NCBI GenBank assembly: GCA_019695185.1
Contig: JAIBAN010000007.1
Location: 62,001-126,000 of the forward strand
Direction: 5' to 3'
Length of the DNA: 64,000 nucleotides
Origin: Blastocatellia bacterium
GTDB lineage: Bacteria > Acidobacteriota > Blastocatellia > Chloracidobacteriales > Chloracidobacteriaceae
Part shown: positions 4,078 to 10,930 of the stretch, in pieces
How positions within the stretch are numbered: the first letter of the stretch is position 1
How the letters are laid out: every line of letters starts with the position of its first letter
The notes under the pieces: model-generated
The model's input: only the letters and a program-made list of their open reading frames with translations
Told to the model about the DNA's origin: nothing
Databases searched by the model: none
Position numbers and translations under genes: made by a program

Positions 4078-4189
4078 TATTTGCAATTTACAACTGTCCA
4101 TTTGCCATTTTTCATTGAGGAACGGCTTTTCGTCATTGAAATGGCAACCGGGCAATCGCAAATTGCAAATCGCAAATGGGCAATTGCAA
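4078..4189. repeat. Inverted array of CATTTGC / GCAAATG words
   Basis: The left part reads TTTGCAATTT, CCATTTGCCATTT and TTCATTGA. The right part contains the complements TCATTGAAATGGC and repeated GCAAATT, GCAAATC and GCAAATG. The arms can fold on each other across an approximately 15-nt loop. The last unit runs into the start codon of the next gene at 4190. Confidence 0.75.
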
Positions 4190-6022
4190 ATGAAATCTTT
4201 CCGCGACTTATTGCAAGACGACCGGATCTGGGTCTTTGACGGAGCCATGGGCACCATGCTTTATGCCAAAGGTGTCTATATCAACAAATGCTATGACGAG
4301 TTGAACCTGTCCAGTCCGGGACTGGTCATGGAAATTCACCGCGAATACGTCAAGGCCGGCGCGGAAATTGTTGAAACAAACACGTTTGGGGCCAATCGTC
4401 CGAAACTTGAATCCTATGGGTTCGGCAGCCATTTACAGGAAATCAACTACAAAGCGGCCAAAATCGCCCGCGAAGCCGTCGGCCCCAATGTCTTTGTCGC
4501 CGGTGCGATGGGTCCTCTGGGGATCCGGATTGAACCTTGGGGACCGACCTCGTTTGACGAGGCCAAAGCACTGTTCAAAGAACAGGCCGAAGCACTGCTG
4601 GATGGTGGTGTGGACCTGATTATTCTGGAAACATTCACGGATTTGAGCGAAATCCGACAGGCCATGCTCGCCGTGCGGGAGCTTTCCGACGTGCCGATTA
4701 TTGCCTCCATGACCATTGGCGAGGACGGCTCCACCGGCTACGGTACGGGTCCGGAAATCTATGTGCCCCGCCTCGACCTGTGGGGAGCGGACGTGATTGG
4801 CCTCAATTGCAGCATTGGCCCCAAGCCGATGCTTGAAGCCATTGAGCAAGTGGCGGCCCTGACCGAGCGGAAGCTCTGCGCCCAGCCGAACGCCGGCCTG
4901 CCCCGCGATTTTCAAGGTAGAAAAATTTATCTCTGTTCCGATGAATATATGGCCAAGTATGCCCGGCGACTGATTCAAGCCGGGGTCAAATTCATCGGGG
5001 GCTGTTGTGGAACCACCCCCGAGCATATTCGGGCGATTGCCGGTGCGGTCCGGGCCTTGTCCCCTTCCAAACGGGTCGAACCTGTCATCAGTGTTCCCAA
5101 AATCGAAGGTCCGCAGGTCGAAGTGGTGCCCCAGGCGGAAAAATCCCGGTTTGCCCGCAAAGTGGCCACCGGGGAATTTGTCACCAGTGTTGAGATCGTG
5201 CCGCCCAAAGGCTGTGACCCCACGAAAATGATTGAGAGCGTCAAGCTCCTCAAGGAGGCCGGAGTGGATGCCGTCAATGTGCCTGACGGCCCACGGGCGC
5301 AATCGCGGATGGGGGCGATTGCCACCTCGGTGATTATTGAACGTTATGGGATTGAGGCCGTGGTGCATTATTGTTGCCGGGACCGGAACCTGCTCGGCAT
5401 GAACTCCGATTTGCTCGGAGCCGCCGCCTTGGGCTTGCGCAATATCCTTTTGATTACGGGTGACCCCCCCAAAATGGGACCGTACCCGGATGCCACCGCC
5501 GTCTTTGACATTGATTCCATTGGATTGACGAATATGGTGTCCCGGCTGAACGGCGGCATGGACCTGGGCGGGAACCCGATTGGCCAGCCGACGGCATTTT
5601 TTATCGGGGTCGGAGTCAACCCCGGTGCCATTGACCTGGATTACGAAATTCGCCGGTTCGAGTGGAAAGTCGCAGCCGGAGCGGAATACGCCATCACCCA
5701 GCCGATTTTTGATGTCAAAGTGCTCAAAAACTTCCTCAAGCGGATTGAGCACTGCCGAATTCCCGTCATTGCCGGAATCTGGCCGCTGACCAGTTATCGC
5801 AATGCCGAATTTTTGAGCAACGAAGTCCCCGGTGTGACCGTTGCGCCCGAAATCCTGAAGCGGATGCGGGCTGCCGAATCGCCGGAAGCCGCGCAAAACG
5901 AAGGGTTAATGATTGCACGGGAAATGCTTCAGGAGGTCCGGCCACTGGTGCAGGGCGTACAGGTCAGTGCTCCGTTTGGCCGTGTCCCCTATGCGCTGGA
6001 AGTCTTTCAAGGTCTGACCTGA
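4190..6022 (+). CDS. Bifunctional homocysteine S-methyltransferase / 5,10-methylenetetrahydrofolate reductase
   Basis: The 610-residue protein is a fusion. Residues 1-290 are a homocysteine methyltransferase domain with FDGAMGTML at the start and the zinc ligands Cys207 (NCSIGP), Cys272 and Cys273 (GGCCGTTPEH). Residues about 315-610 are a MetF-type domain (TSVEIVPPKG, HYCCRDRN, NILLITGDPPK, EYAITQPIFD). The same architecture is known in the Bacillus YitJ type. It would reduce methylene-THF and methylate homocysteine in methionine and one-carbon metabolism. No B12-binding domain is present, so the methyl donor of the first domain cannot be told from sequence. The ATG at 4190 gives the expected start; the upstream 25 codons come from repeat DNA. 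Confidence 0.92.
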   Translation: MKSFRDLLQDDRIWVFDGAMGTMLYAKGVYINKCYDELNLSSPGLVMEIHREYVKAGAEIVETNTFGANRPKLESYGFGSHLQEINYKAAKIAREAVGPNVFVAGAMGPLGIRIEPWGPTSFDEAKALFKEQAEALLDGGVDLIILETFTDLSEIRQAMLAVRELSDVPIIASMTIGEDGSTGYGTGPEIYVPRLDLWGADVIGLNCSIGPKPMLEAIEQVAALTERKLCAQPNAGLPRDFQGRKIYLCSDEYMAKYARRLIQAGVKFIGGCCGTTPEHIRAIAGAVRALSPSKRVEPVISVPKIEGPQVEVVPQAEKSRFARKVATGEFVTSVEIVPPKGCDPTKMIESVKLLKEAGVDAVNVPDGPRAQSRMGAIATSVIIERYGIEAVVHYCCRDRNLLGMNSDLLGAAALGLRNILLITGDPPKMGPYPDATAVFDIDSIGLTNMVSRLNGGMDLGGNPIGQPTAFFIGVGVNPGAIDLDYEIRRFEWKVAAGAEYAITQPIFDVKVLKNFLKRIEHCRIPVIAGIWPLTSYRNAEFLSNEVPGVTVAPEILKRMRAAESPEAAQNEGLMIAREMLQEVRPLVQGVQVSAPFGRVPYALEVFQGLT

Positions 6023-7108: not shown

Positions 7109-7145
7109 TTCAGGACTGAGGACTGAGGACTGAGGACTGATTCAG
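7109..7145 (+). repeat. Heptamer array (GGACTGA), direct
   Basis: Four tandem GGACTGA units directly after the permease stop codon, bounded by ATTCA on both sides. Confidence 0.85.
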
Positions 7146-7269: not shown

Positions 7270-8340
7270 ATGCGCGCAATTTCATTGCGTTGGTTGAGCG
7301 TGTTGCTGGTCACGGCCATGGTTCACACCCTGGCTGTCTTTGCCCAGACACCGCAAGCCCCAGCGTCTGCCCCTAACGATGCGTTGAGAGCATTGTTGGG
7401 TGCGGACGATAATGCGGCGCTCGCCATCATGTATGGCGGCGAGACACGTGGAAACATTGATACCTGTGGTTGACGGGCCCATCCCATGGGGGGACTGGCG
7501 CGGCGCGTCAGTTATTTACAAGCTTTTCGCAAGACTTTTGCCCAAACCCAGGTGATTGAATTGAACGCCGGTTACAGCTTGAACGATGCGGGGGTTATGG
7601 CCAATCCGCCGCTCAAGGACATCGCCGTTCAAAACACATACGCCCTCCGGGCTTACAGCCGGTTTCCGTTTGATGCCTTCAATATCTCGTTCCATGATTT
7701 ACCGGTCCTGAGCCAGTATCTGGAAAAAGTACATCAAAAGGCCAACTTTGCTGAATTCCCGGCCCTGAAAACCCTGGTGTCGGCCAACCTGACACCCGAA
7801 GCAGACCAGAAGACGCACCTGCCGATTGCGCCTTACATCATTCGTGAACTGAAAAGCCCACGGTTTCCCAAAGGAAAACTGCGGGTGGGGATTACAGGTT
7901 TCAGTGAACCTGCCCCCGGAGCCAATCAGGGATATGTCTGGCGTGAAGTCGAAAAAACAGCCACCGAAGTTCTGCCCGAACTGCGGAAAAAGGTGGACCT
8001 GGTGGTCGTCATGGCCTATTTACCGGTTGACCAGGCACAAAATCTGTGCCGCAATCATCCGGAAATTGACGTCTGTATCGCGGCTTACACCAAAGTCTTT
8101 CAGGCCCCAATTGAAAAATTCGGCAACGCCCAGTTCGTAATGAGCAATTACGAAACCAAAAACCTGGGCGAACTGAGGATTTCCTTTGGTCCGAAAGGCG
8201 AACTAACCGTCACCAACCGGTTTGTGCCGCTTGACAGCCAGATTCCGGACGAACCGGCAGCCGCCCAACTCGTCCAGGAAACCAAGACTGCTGTTGACGC
8301 GGCCCAAAAAGCGATGGTGCAGCAGATGCAGAACCACTAA
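7270..8340 (+). CDS. Secreted nucleotidase-like protein with in-frame UGA (candidate selenoprotein, Sec68)
   Basis: One frame runs from the ATG at 7270 to the TAA at 8338-8340 (356 codons before the stop), broken only by TGA at 7471-7473. Residues 1-25 are a Sec signal peptide (ends VFAQ). The break lies in GNIDTCG-[TGA]-RAHPMGGLARR. In related secreted metallophosphoesterase/5'-nucleotidase-like proteins I know this region as CGC..P.GGLARR, so the UGA falls on the second, conserved cysteine. Homology continues smoothly on both sides in the same frame, which argues against a frameshift. A small hairpin lies 22-38 nt after the UGA. The usual D.H metal motif reads GETRGN here. Alternatives are a nonsense mutation or sequencing error. 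If the UGA is a stop, a 284-residue piece could start at 7486. Confidence 0.7.
7495..7511 (+). promoter_or_regulatory. Candidate bacterial SECIS hairpin
   Basis: CTGGCGC (7495-7501) pairs with GCGTCAG (7505-7511), one G-U pair, around a GGC loop that starts 28 nt after the UGA. A G at the loop start and this distance agree with what is known of bacterial SECIS elements. A second small hairpin (CCCAT/ATGGG, 7478-7490) lies closer. The region is GC-rich coding DNA, so chance pairing is possible. Confidence 0.4.
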
Positions 8341-8345
8341 AAACC

Positions 8346-8462
8346 AGTCTTGGGAGTCCTGGGAGTCTGAAGAAGCAATGCAGTGACAAGTAAACAGTGA
8401 CAGGATTTTTTTCTTGTCGCCTGTTACCTGTTTTTGACTCCCAAGACTCCCAAGACTCCCTG
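8346..8462. repeat. Inverted nonamer array (TTGGGAGTC / GACTCCCAA)
   Basis: Left arm 8346-8370, right arm about 8437-8462. The centre contains GTGACAGG, a T-run and CTTGTC. This is the reverse complement of the centre of the array at 1904-2060, so the same core sits in opposite orientation between the same kind of arms. Confidence 0.85.
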
Positions 8463-8636
8463 GACTGTATTTTCATTTTTTGCTAGCTTTGCGCACCTGA
8501 TTTTTCAACACAATCCAACGTTTTTATCTGATTTTTCGCACTTCAAAGTTTCTTGTACCCGATCTGTTGTGCTTGAGATTTGGTGCATATCTTGCAACAA
8601 CCTGGTGACAGGTTTGTCTCGGAGGCAGATTCTGCA

Positions 8637-8981
8637 ATGTCATACGAAGCTCTCGGAATGGTCGAAACCAAAGGATTCATCGGGGCAGTGGAAGCCGCTG
8701 ACGCGATGGTGAAAGCCGCCAACGTCGTTTTGGTCGGCAAGGAATACATTGGTGCCGGTTATGTGACGGTGTTTGTGCGGGGTGATGTCGGAGCCGTTAA
8801 AGCCGCCACCGATGCCGGTGCCGCTGCTGCCCGCCGGGTCGGCGAACTGATTAGCGTCCATGTGATTCCCCGCCCGCACCAGGAAGTCGAGCGCGTCTTT
8901 GAAGAACAGGGCTGGAGCCTCACCAAAGCACTCGACAGCGGCAACGCCAAGGAACTCAACGACGGCAAAGGGAAAAAATAA
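8637..8981 (+). CDS. BMC-domain microcompartment shell protein (hexameric, BMC-H)
   Basis: The 114-residue protein has one BMC domain (residues about 3-88): [21 protein letters not shown], then [20 protein letters not shown] (split here at the pore loop). The pore loop between strands, KEYIGAG at 35-41, replaces the K-x-GSG type loop of PduA/EutM; Tyr37 and the missing lysine-serine pair may change pore selectivity. A charged 25-residue tail ([25 protein letters not shown]) follows the domain. Such proteins tile the facets of the polyhedral protein shell. It is followed by a shell-pathway aldehyde dehydrogenase; a vertex protein is at 16323. A GGAGG motif about 12 nt upstream supports this start. 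Confidence 0.95.
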
Positions 8982-9097
8982 TTGAGAATTGAGAATTGAG
9001 AATTAAAACAGCAGAAGTATTCAAAAAAGCCTCTGATTGGACTGCTGAATACGAATCGGGTTGAATTCTCAATTCTCAATTCTCAATTCTCAATTAA
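8981..9097. repeat. Inverted heptamer array (ATTGAGA / TCTCAAT)
   Basis: Left arm 8981-9005 (three units, beginning on the last base of the BMC-H stop codon) faces right arm 9062-9097 (four to five units). The hairpin would end 5 nt before the GAAGGAGG ribosome binding site of the aldehyde dehydrogenase, so it lies inside a probable operon. Confidence 0.9.
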
Positions 9098-9115
9098 AGA
9101 TGAAGGAGGCCGCTC

Positions 9116-10930
9116 ATGGCATTGGACCGTGATTTGAGTTCCATCCAGCAAGCGCGCGACCTGGTTGAAGCTGCGCACCGTGCCCAAAGTGTGCTGGCAA
9201 CGTTTTCCCAAGAGAAGATTGATTCCATCGTCCAGACCATGGCCGCCACGGCGTTAGCCCATTCCGAACGGCTGGCGGAAATGGCCGTCCAGGAAACCGG
9301 GTTTGGGATTGCTTCCGACAAAGTGATTAAAAACACCTTTGCCGGAAAAAACGTCCATGAGTTTTTTCGCTCGTTGCGCACCGTGGGCGTGATTCGGGAA
9401 ACTCCGACCCTCATCGAAGTGGCCGACCCGCGTGGCGTGGTTTGTGCCATCATTCCCTCCACCAATCCGACCTCGACTGCGATTTTCAAAGCATTAATCA
9501 GCATTAAATCCCGCAACGGAGTGGTGATGAGCCCGCACCCTTCGGCAGCCGGTTGTATTGCCGAAACGACCCGCCTCATGCGGGAGGCAGCCGAAGCCGC
9601 CGGACTCCCGCCTGGAGCCATTGGCTGTCTTTCGATTGCGACCCTGGGCGGCACCGAAGCCCTGATGAAGCACGAAAAAACGGCGGTCATCCTGGCTACC
9701 GGCGGAACGGGGCTGGTCCGGGCTGCCTACAGTTCGGGCAAACCTGCTTTTGGCGTGGGACCCGGTAACGTTCCGGTGCTGATTGAACGCAGTGCGGATA
9801 TTCCCAAAGCTGTGGCGGATATCCTGGCCGGAAAAACCTTTGACAATGGGACCGTCTGTGCCTCAGAACAGGCGGTGGTGGTTGAGCAGCACTCGGATGC
9901 AGAAGTCCGTGCTCAGTTTCAGGCTCAGGGTGGTTACTTTTTGGGTAAGGAAGATGCCGAAAAACTGGCCAAAGTGGTGGTGCTGCCAAGCCGTGGTCTG
10001 AATGCCAAAATTGTCGGAAAATCAGTCAAAAAGATTGCCGAAATGGCTGGCATCAGCGTCCCCGAAGGGACCCGCTCCCTAATGGTGCAACTTGAGGGCG
10101 TTGGCCGTGATTACCCGCTTTCCCTCGAAAAACTCTCGCCGATTCTGGCCTATTACGTGGTGCCTGATTTCAAAACCGGCGTTGAACGGTGCGTCCAGAT
10201 TCTGCGTTATGGCGGAACCGGACATTCGGTTGGAATTCATTCACAGGACCGCGACAAAATCCGGGAATTCGGGATGCGTCAACCGGCTTCGCGGATTCTG
10301 GTCAATACTCCGACAACCCACGGGGCCATCGGGTTTTCCACTGAACTTTCCCCCAGTATGACCCTCGGTTGTGGCAGTTGGGGCGGCAACGTGACCTCCG
10401 ACAATATTTCCCCGCTCCACTTGATGGATGTCAAACGGATTGCCTTTGAAACCTTCCCGGTTACCCGTCCGACGGTCAAAGCACCGCCTCCGGTCAAATC
10501 CAGCGTGGTTGCGGCACCGGTTATTTCCGTCGGCCAATCGGCCCCACGGGCAGTGGTGCATCAGGTCATTCCATCGGCTACGCCGGCCTTGAAAACCGGC
10601 ACCGGCTCGATTGACCGCAATGCCATCGCCGCCTTGGTGGACCAGTTTCTTTCCGAGCGAAAAGCGAAAGGACCGGCTCCCTCAAAAAAAGTTGAGCCGA
10701 CACCGCCACCCGTTGCGCCGCCTCAGCCAGTCGCGCAGCCTGCTCCGGCGGCGGTGCCGGCTCCAGAACCAGTGGCTGAAAAAGCAGTTGAGTTTGTTTG
10801 TGAGGATGATGTTCGGCGGGCCATGGTCGCAGGCCGCAAAATTCTGACTGACAAGAAAACCATCATTACCCCTGCCGCCCGTGATTTGGGCCGCGAACAA
10901 AACGTGTTCACCGGCTACGCAGACAAGTGA
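9116..10930 (+). CDS. CoA-acylating aldehyde dehydrogenase of BMC type (EutE/PduP-like) with extra C-terminal module
   Basis: Residues 1-455 match the acetaldehyde/propionaldehyde dehydrogenases of microcompartments: [30 protein letters not shown], catalytic Cys248 in NGTVCASEQ, and [13 protein letters not shown]. They convert an aldehyde with CoA and NAD to acyl-CoA. The protein is 604 long, about 140 more than usual: a Pro/Ala-rich linker (about 456-557) joins a terminal segment (559-604) with an amphipathic helix [14 protein letters not shown] and [12 protein letters not shown] similar TPxAR stretch occurs in EutT, so the tail may be a targeting or docking element. It is the signature enzyme of this locus. 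GAAGGAGG 7 nt upstream. Confidence 0.93.

Follow-up and report, generated by a model that had tools for sequence, protein, structure and literature searches.

The window analysed here, a stretch of 64,000 nucleotides from a Blastocatellia genome, carries on its forward strand a coding region at 7270-8340 that is interrupted by a TGA, and the question arises whether this codon terminates a gene or is read as selenocysteine (Sec). Standard translation of the region gives two ORFs. Both belong to one reading frame that begins with an ATG at 7270, has its sole in-frame TGA at 7471-7473 (codon 68) and the next in-frame ATG at 7486, and ends with a stop codon at 8338-8340. The initial annotation had described a single frame split by one TGA and four codons (R-A-H-P) before a second ATG, and the computed translation bears this out. 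Reading the TGA as U recodes exactly one codon and gives a product of 356 residues, in which codon 68 is found in the context NIDTCG-U-RAHPMGGLARR. On the basis of sequence comparisons the region is predicted, with a probability of about 0.95, to be a genuine selenoprotein gene with Sec at codon 68. The features assigned to it are as follows.

7270..8340, + strand: predicted complete selenoprotein gene, 356 aa with TGA as Sec, with full-length read-through homology.
7270..7347, + strand: signal peptide, probably of Sec type, residues ~1-26 (MRAISLRWLSVLLVTAMVHTLAVFAQ), recognised by eye from the sequence; residues 1-31 have pLDDT <50 in the structural model.
7412..8235 (approximate), + strand: degenerate calcineurin-like metallophosphatase (5'-nucleotidase) domain, from Foldseek, the CD73 profile and a tally of ligands.
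7465..7473, + strand: codons of the Cys66-Gly67-Sec68 motif, with Cys or Sec in 87/87 family members.
7493..7513, + strand: bacterial SECIS hairpin GACUGGCGC(GGC)GCGUCAGUU, from its fold, a synonymous-codon test and covariation.

Homologues of the window protein have been identified on both sides of the TGA. The product of the corresponding gene in G009, a genome of the same family, is 72% identical in the 25 residues that precede the TGA and 60% identical in the 288 that follow. A search at the level of the order has revealed that the gene has a single TGA in several genera and is free of stops in others, and in a sample of the phylum relatives are encoded in 75 of the 396 genomes, mostly with an in-frame TGA. 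Among 87 distinct loci of the phylum 48 have TGA in the aligned column and the other 39 a Cys codon (TGC or TGT), and nothing else is found there; another residue (Thr) occupies this column in ordinary metallophosphatases only. The earlier proposal that the UGA stands at the conserved Cys of a C-G-C motif is thus upheld, and Cys66-Gly67-Cys/Sec68 is invariant in an alignment of 17 members. The branch of the window protein, with TCGU, falls in one tree with members having PCGU, and the C-G-U/C motif followed by GGLARR is common to both. On this tree Sec and Cys must have replaced one another at least 13 times, and well-supported branches alone force 9 of these changes; such repeated switching of the label indicates that the UGA is not a one-off. 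The two ORFs of the standard translation could also come from a nucleotidase gene that has decayed to a pseudogene and acquired a premature stop, or from an error of sequencing at the TGA. This is very improbable, as the same TGA column recurs in 48 loci, there is one stop only, conservation persists downstream, and both the covariation of the SECIS hairpin and the presence of sel genes (see below) speak against it. We have rejected this alternative because of the TGA column common to these loci and because of the hairpin, and the argument of the initial annotation against a decayed gene agrees with the homologues, which read through the same point.

Copies with Cys are also found next to those with Sec. 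Two close paralogues occur in the genome G010: L033 has the UGA and L030 has TGT in its place. The Cys copy L030 still retains a SECIS-like hairpin, a probable fossil of a recent change from Sec to Cys. The genome hosting the window encodes a Cys paralogue (L002). A Cys relative in another genome (L099 of G260) has a CDC motif and a hairpin of 9 pairs in the SECIS register, with no TGA.

The ATG at 7486, five codons past the TGA, would permit re-initiation of translation giving a leaderless product, and the UGA could instead be decoded by another route, for instance as Trp or through a near-cognate tRNA. Neither process is at all likely to explain the gene. The codon at 7486 is not conserved and is replaced by L, Q, A, S or T in other members, re-initiation would yield a product without signal peptide and without the conserved Cys66, and the residue of the homologues at the UGA position is Cys and not Trp.

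Decoding as Sec would depend on a dedicated machinery, and the initial annotation had proposed a search for its genes. All of them are found in the host genome, which has a size of 8.33 Mb and a completeness of 99.7%. The tRNA-Sec (selC) has a TCA anticodon and scores 61.8 bits against the Rfam cut-off of 47 bits, and profile searches have identified SelA (547.4 bits), SelB (386.7 bits) and SelD (385.5 bits) above the curated cut-offs. In the order-level sample tRNA-Sec exceeds the cut-off in 14/14 genomes and SelB in 12/14. In the phylum sample SelB is present in 41 of the 43 genomes with TGA, compared with 256 of all 396 (Fisher p 7e-7, with the counts taken by eye from lists and the p value ignoring kinship). 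The two TGA genomes that have no SelB over the cut-off, G121 and G295, are drafts (95% and 75% complete) with just partial matches in the SelB search, which are probably EF-Tu. The possibility that the Sec genes merely track the presence of SelB has been ruled out with the Cys-only genomes of a related genus (g2). These have tRNA-Sec, and SelB exceeds the cut-off in all except G005, an assembly 85% complete; the Sec genes therefore do not simply follow SelB.

The hairpin at 7493-7513 has a stem of 9 bp and a GGC loop at 7502-7504, with a spacing of 28 nt from the UGA such that the loop starts 29 nt after it. Its folding energy is -12.7 kcal/mol (z -3.8, with 0/200 shuffles as stable). Bacterial SECIS elements are described as having a loop of 3-9 nt with G in the first two positions, a stem of 4-16 bp, a distance of 16-37 nt after the UGA and an MFE of at most -7.5 kcal/mol (PMC13188914), and the hairpin agrees with all four constraints. 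The codons of LARR[AV] by themselves favour the palindrome, and a comparable one arises from coding alone in L043, an ordinary metallophosphatase; a synonymous-codon null was chosen because of this effect of coding. When anchored on the protein alignment, 8 or 9 of the 9 pairs are present in 39 of the 48 Sec loci. The mean in the Sec loci is 8.02 of 9 pairs against 6.18 under synonymous recoding (z 12.5, 0/2000), and in the Cys loci 5.59 against 5.23 (z 2.6); the register of this test is fixed on the RR codons and was noticed on the same loci, so that the test is only partly blind, and sequences related to each other do not count as independent. Two of the Sec loci (L119 and L124) are mis-anchored by an extra Gly, which lowers the score and does not raise it. 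Covariation was computed for 44 Sec sequences, which are likewise related and not independent; 90.9% of the cells are paired, dropping to 28-48% in slid registers, and changes on both sides of the stem, of the compensatory kind, are found in 59 cells against 15.5 after shuffling (0/500). The 45 nt from the UGA fold no better than shuffles (z -0.8) and their MFE fold competes with the hairpin, and when hairpins of any kind were scanned for with synonymous recoding as the null, the signal was modest (mean z 1.57). The hairpin is thus clear through the comparison of homologues only and not through MFE folding of the 45 nt. We infer that Sec is inserted at this position: the UGA at 7471-7473 would be decoded by SelB and tRNA-Sec, steered by the hairpin.

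The initial annotation had further regarded the product as an exported nucleotidase-like protein. Export is probable, as judged from the signal peptide of Sec type seen at the N-terminus. The AlphaFold model of the window protein has a mean pLDDT of 87.3 and a pTM of 0.86, and a Foldseek search with this model retrieves 5'-nucleotidases (E 2.5e-17, TM-score ~0.6 by query length); a profile match to CD73 is also observed. The canonical metal and catalytic residues, which we take from UshA and CD73, are seven in number: D, H, D, N, H, H and H. When the window protein is aligned to intact metallophosphatases, these positions are occupied by E, R, Y, F, H, Y and Y; it therefore retains 1/7, the His matching that of the GNH motif. 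The dimetal site of an active 5'-nucleotidase (NDxH, GD, GNH(E/D), H, GHxH) is not found in the window protein, and 86 of the 87 family members retain <=2 of the 7 canonical residues. Nucleotidase activity is accordingly not supported for this protein, which according to its structural model has the 5'-nucleotidase fold, yet lacks most of the metal ligands. The decay of the metal site suggests that nucleotide hydrolysis is probably absent. A separate intact nucleotidase (L137, with NDTH, GNHE and GGHTH) is encoded in the host genome.

Most of the long relatives have four CxxCH motifs after the domain, and in the two that were tested this tail matches Cytochrome_C554. The window protein, like its nearest relatives, stops before the tetraheme tail, no CxxCH is found after Sec in the window protein, and there is no multiheme cytochrome gene within the window. 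The fusion of many homologues to tetraheme cytochromes points to electron transfer. An extracytoplasmic redox role of the Cys-Sec pair, which we infer from the CxU motif, the decayed metal site and the fusion to tetraheme cytochromes in relatives, is the reading we moderately favour. The exported product would have the catalytic-domain fold of 5'-nucleotidases with a decayed metal site and probably no hydrolysis of nucleotides, and Cys66-Gly-Sec68 would be its working part, acting as a redox centre outside the cytoplasm that alternates between a selenol/thiol form and a Cys-Sec selenenylsulfide. The heme-less version of the window would require a separate partner for electrons or thiols.

The protein may also be a selenoprotein whose Cys/Sec pair forms a metal or metalloid site, using the adjoining old pocket of the metallophosphatase and with no redox couple. 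The CGU motif does occur about ten residues past the ancestral NDxH metal loop, and the first ligand position is Asp or Glu in 69 of the 87 members. As the remaining metal ligands are mostly lost and the tetraheme fusions of many homologues indicate electron transfer, a metal site of this kind is considered unlikely. With the redox role preferred, the heme-less branch resembles a redox protein on a worn-out nucleotidase fold. More tentatively, and with rather less than even confidence, a metallophosphatase of 5'-nucleotidase type that lost its metal site may have become an exported Cys-Gly-Sec redox enzyme, connected directly to a tetraheme cytochrome in many lineages, of which the window branch would be a soluble form with a physiological role of its own, and selenium would take part in extracytoplasmic electron transfer throughout the phylum. 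The loss of the metal site, the conservation of the C-G-U/C pair and the fusion to tetraheme cytochromes together provide a concrete, testable function for a family that is named by its fold only.

The surroundings of the gene have also been analysed. In G009 and G006 the gene adjoins genes for a PP2C-like phosphatase and an FHA-like protein (the neighbours of L131 and L132 appear from their translations to be a PP2C-type phosphatase and a zinc-ribbon/FHA-like protein). These neighbours are absent at the window copy and hence offer no functional lead. Downstream of the selenoprotein gene, a shell protein of bacterial microcompartments (BMC domain, 98 bits) is encoded at 8637-8981 and a member of the aldehyde dehydrogenase family at 9116-10930, and the two mark the start of a candidate microcompartment locus. 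Upstream, 4115-6022 encodes a fusion of homocysteine S-methyltransferase and methylenetetrahydrofolate reductase. Short direct repeats occur in intergenic regions at 7113-7142, 8440-8465, 8980-9005 and 9070-9098, with the units gaggact, gactccca and gagaatt and their complement.

The initial annotation had proposed a new selenoprotein, and this does not hold. UshA-like selenoproteins with CxU were reported in 2008 (PMC2398784) and are included in reviews of 2022 (PMC9312934) and 2026 (PMC13188914), and NCBIfam has two models for UshA-like (seleno)proteins, NF041198 and NF049981. The window protein belongs to this broad UshA-like CxU (COG0737-like) group by its homologous domain, the C-G-U/C motif with GGLARR, and the shared tree. 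A literature search, with subscription papers mostly outside its reach, found no paper combining 'UshA-like' and 'tetraheme', and the titles and abstracts on Blastocatellia selenoproteins or Chloracidobacterium selenocysteine revealed nothing on such proteins. Because it scores below the cut-offs of both NCBI selenoprotein models, the gene would probably be split in two or dropped by standard annotation; given how widely the family occurs in the sampled genomes, mostly with TGA, the number of selenoproteins overlooked in this way may be considerable.

Among the known systems, the 5'-nucleotidases UshA, CD73 and YfkN have the catalytic-domain fold in common with the window protein, which differs from them in being without most of the metal and catalytic residues and without the C-terminal nucleotide-binding domain. 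The SoxB thiosulfohydrolase (TIGR04486) shares a weak profile similarity with the C-terminal half, with a score of 15.5 bits against a cut-off of 550. NF049981 (UshA-like family 2) likewise describes a short UshA-like selenoprotein, but the window protein scores 42.5 bits against its cut-off of 140 with only ~106 positions matched, and the motif of that family is given as CxxU, not CxU (PMC13188914). The closest likeness is to NF041198 (UshA_like_PCGU, COG0737), which has the same homologous domain, a CxU motif in which UGA replaces the same Cys, and GGLARR after it. The window protein differs from it in having TCGU in place of PCGU and in lacking the tetraheme C-terminal part of this 519-position model, and with 123.6 bits it is below the cut-off of 275; the tetraheme-tailed members L086 (275.1 bits) and L081 (277.6 bits) are above it, and L070, a tetraheme-tailed member from the same class as the window, misses it narrowly (266.4 bits). 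The new part is the heme-less TCGU branch, which is outside both NCBIfam models.
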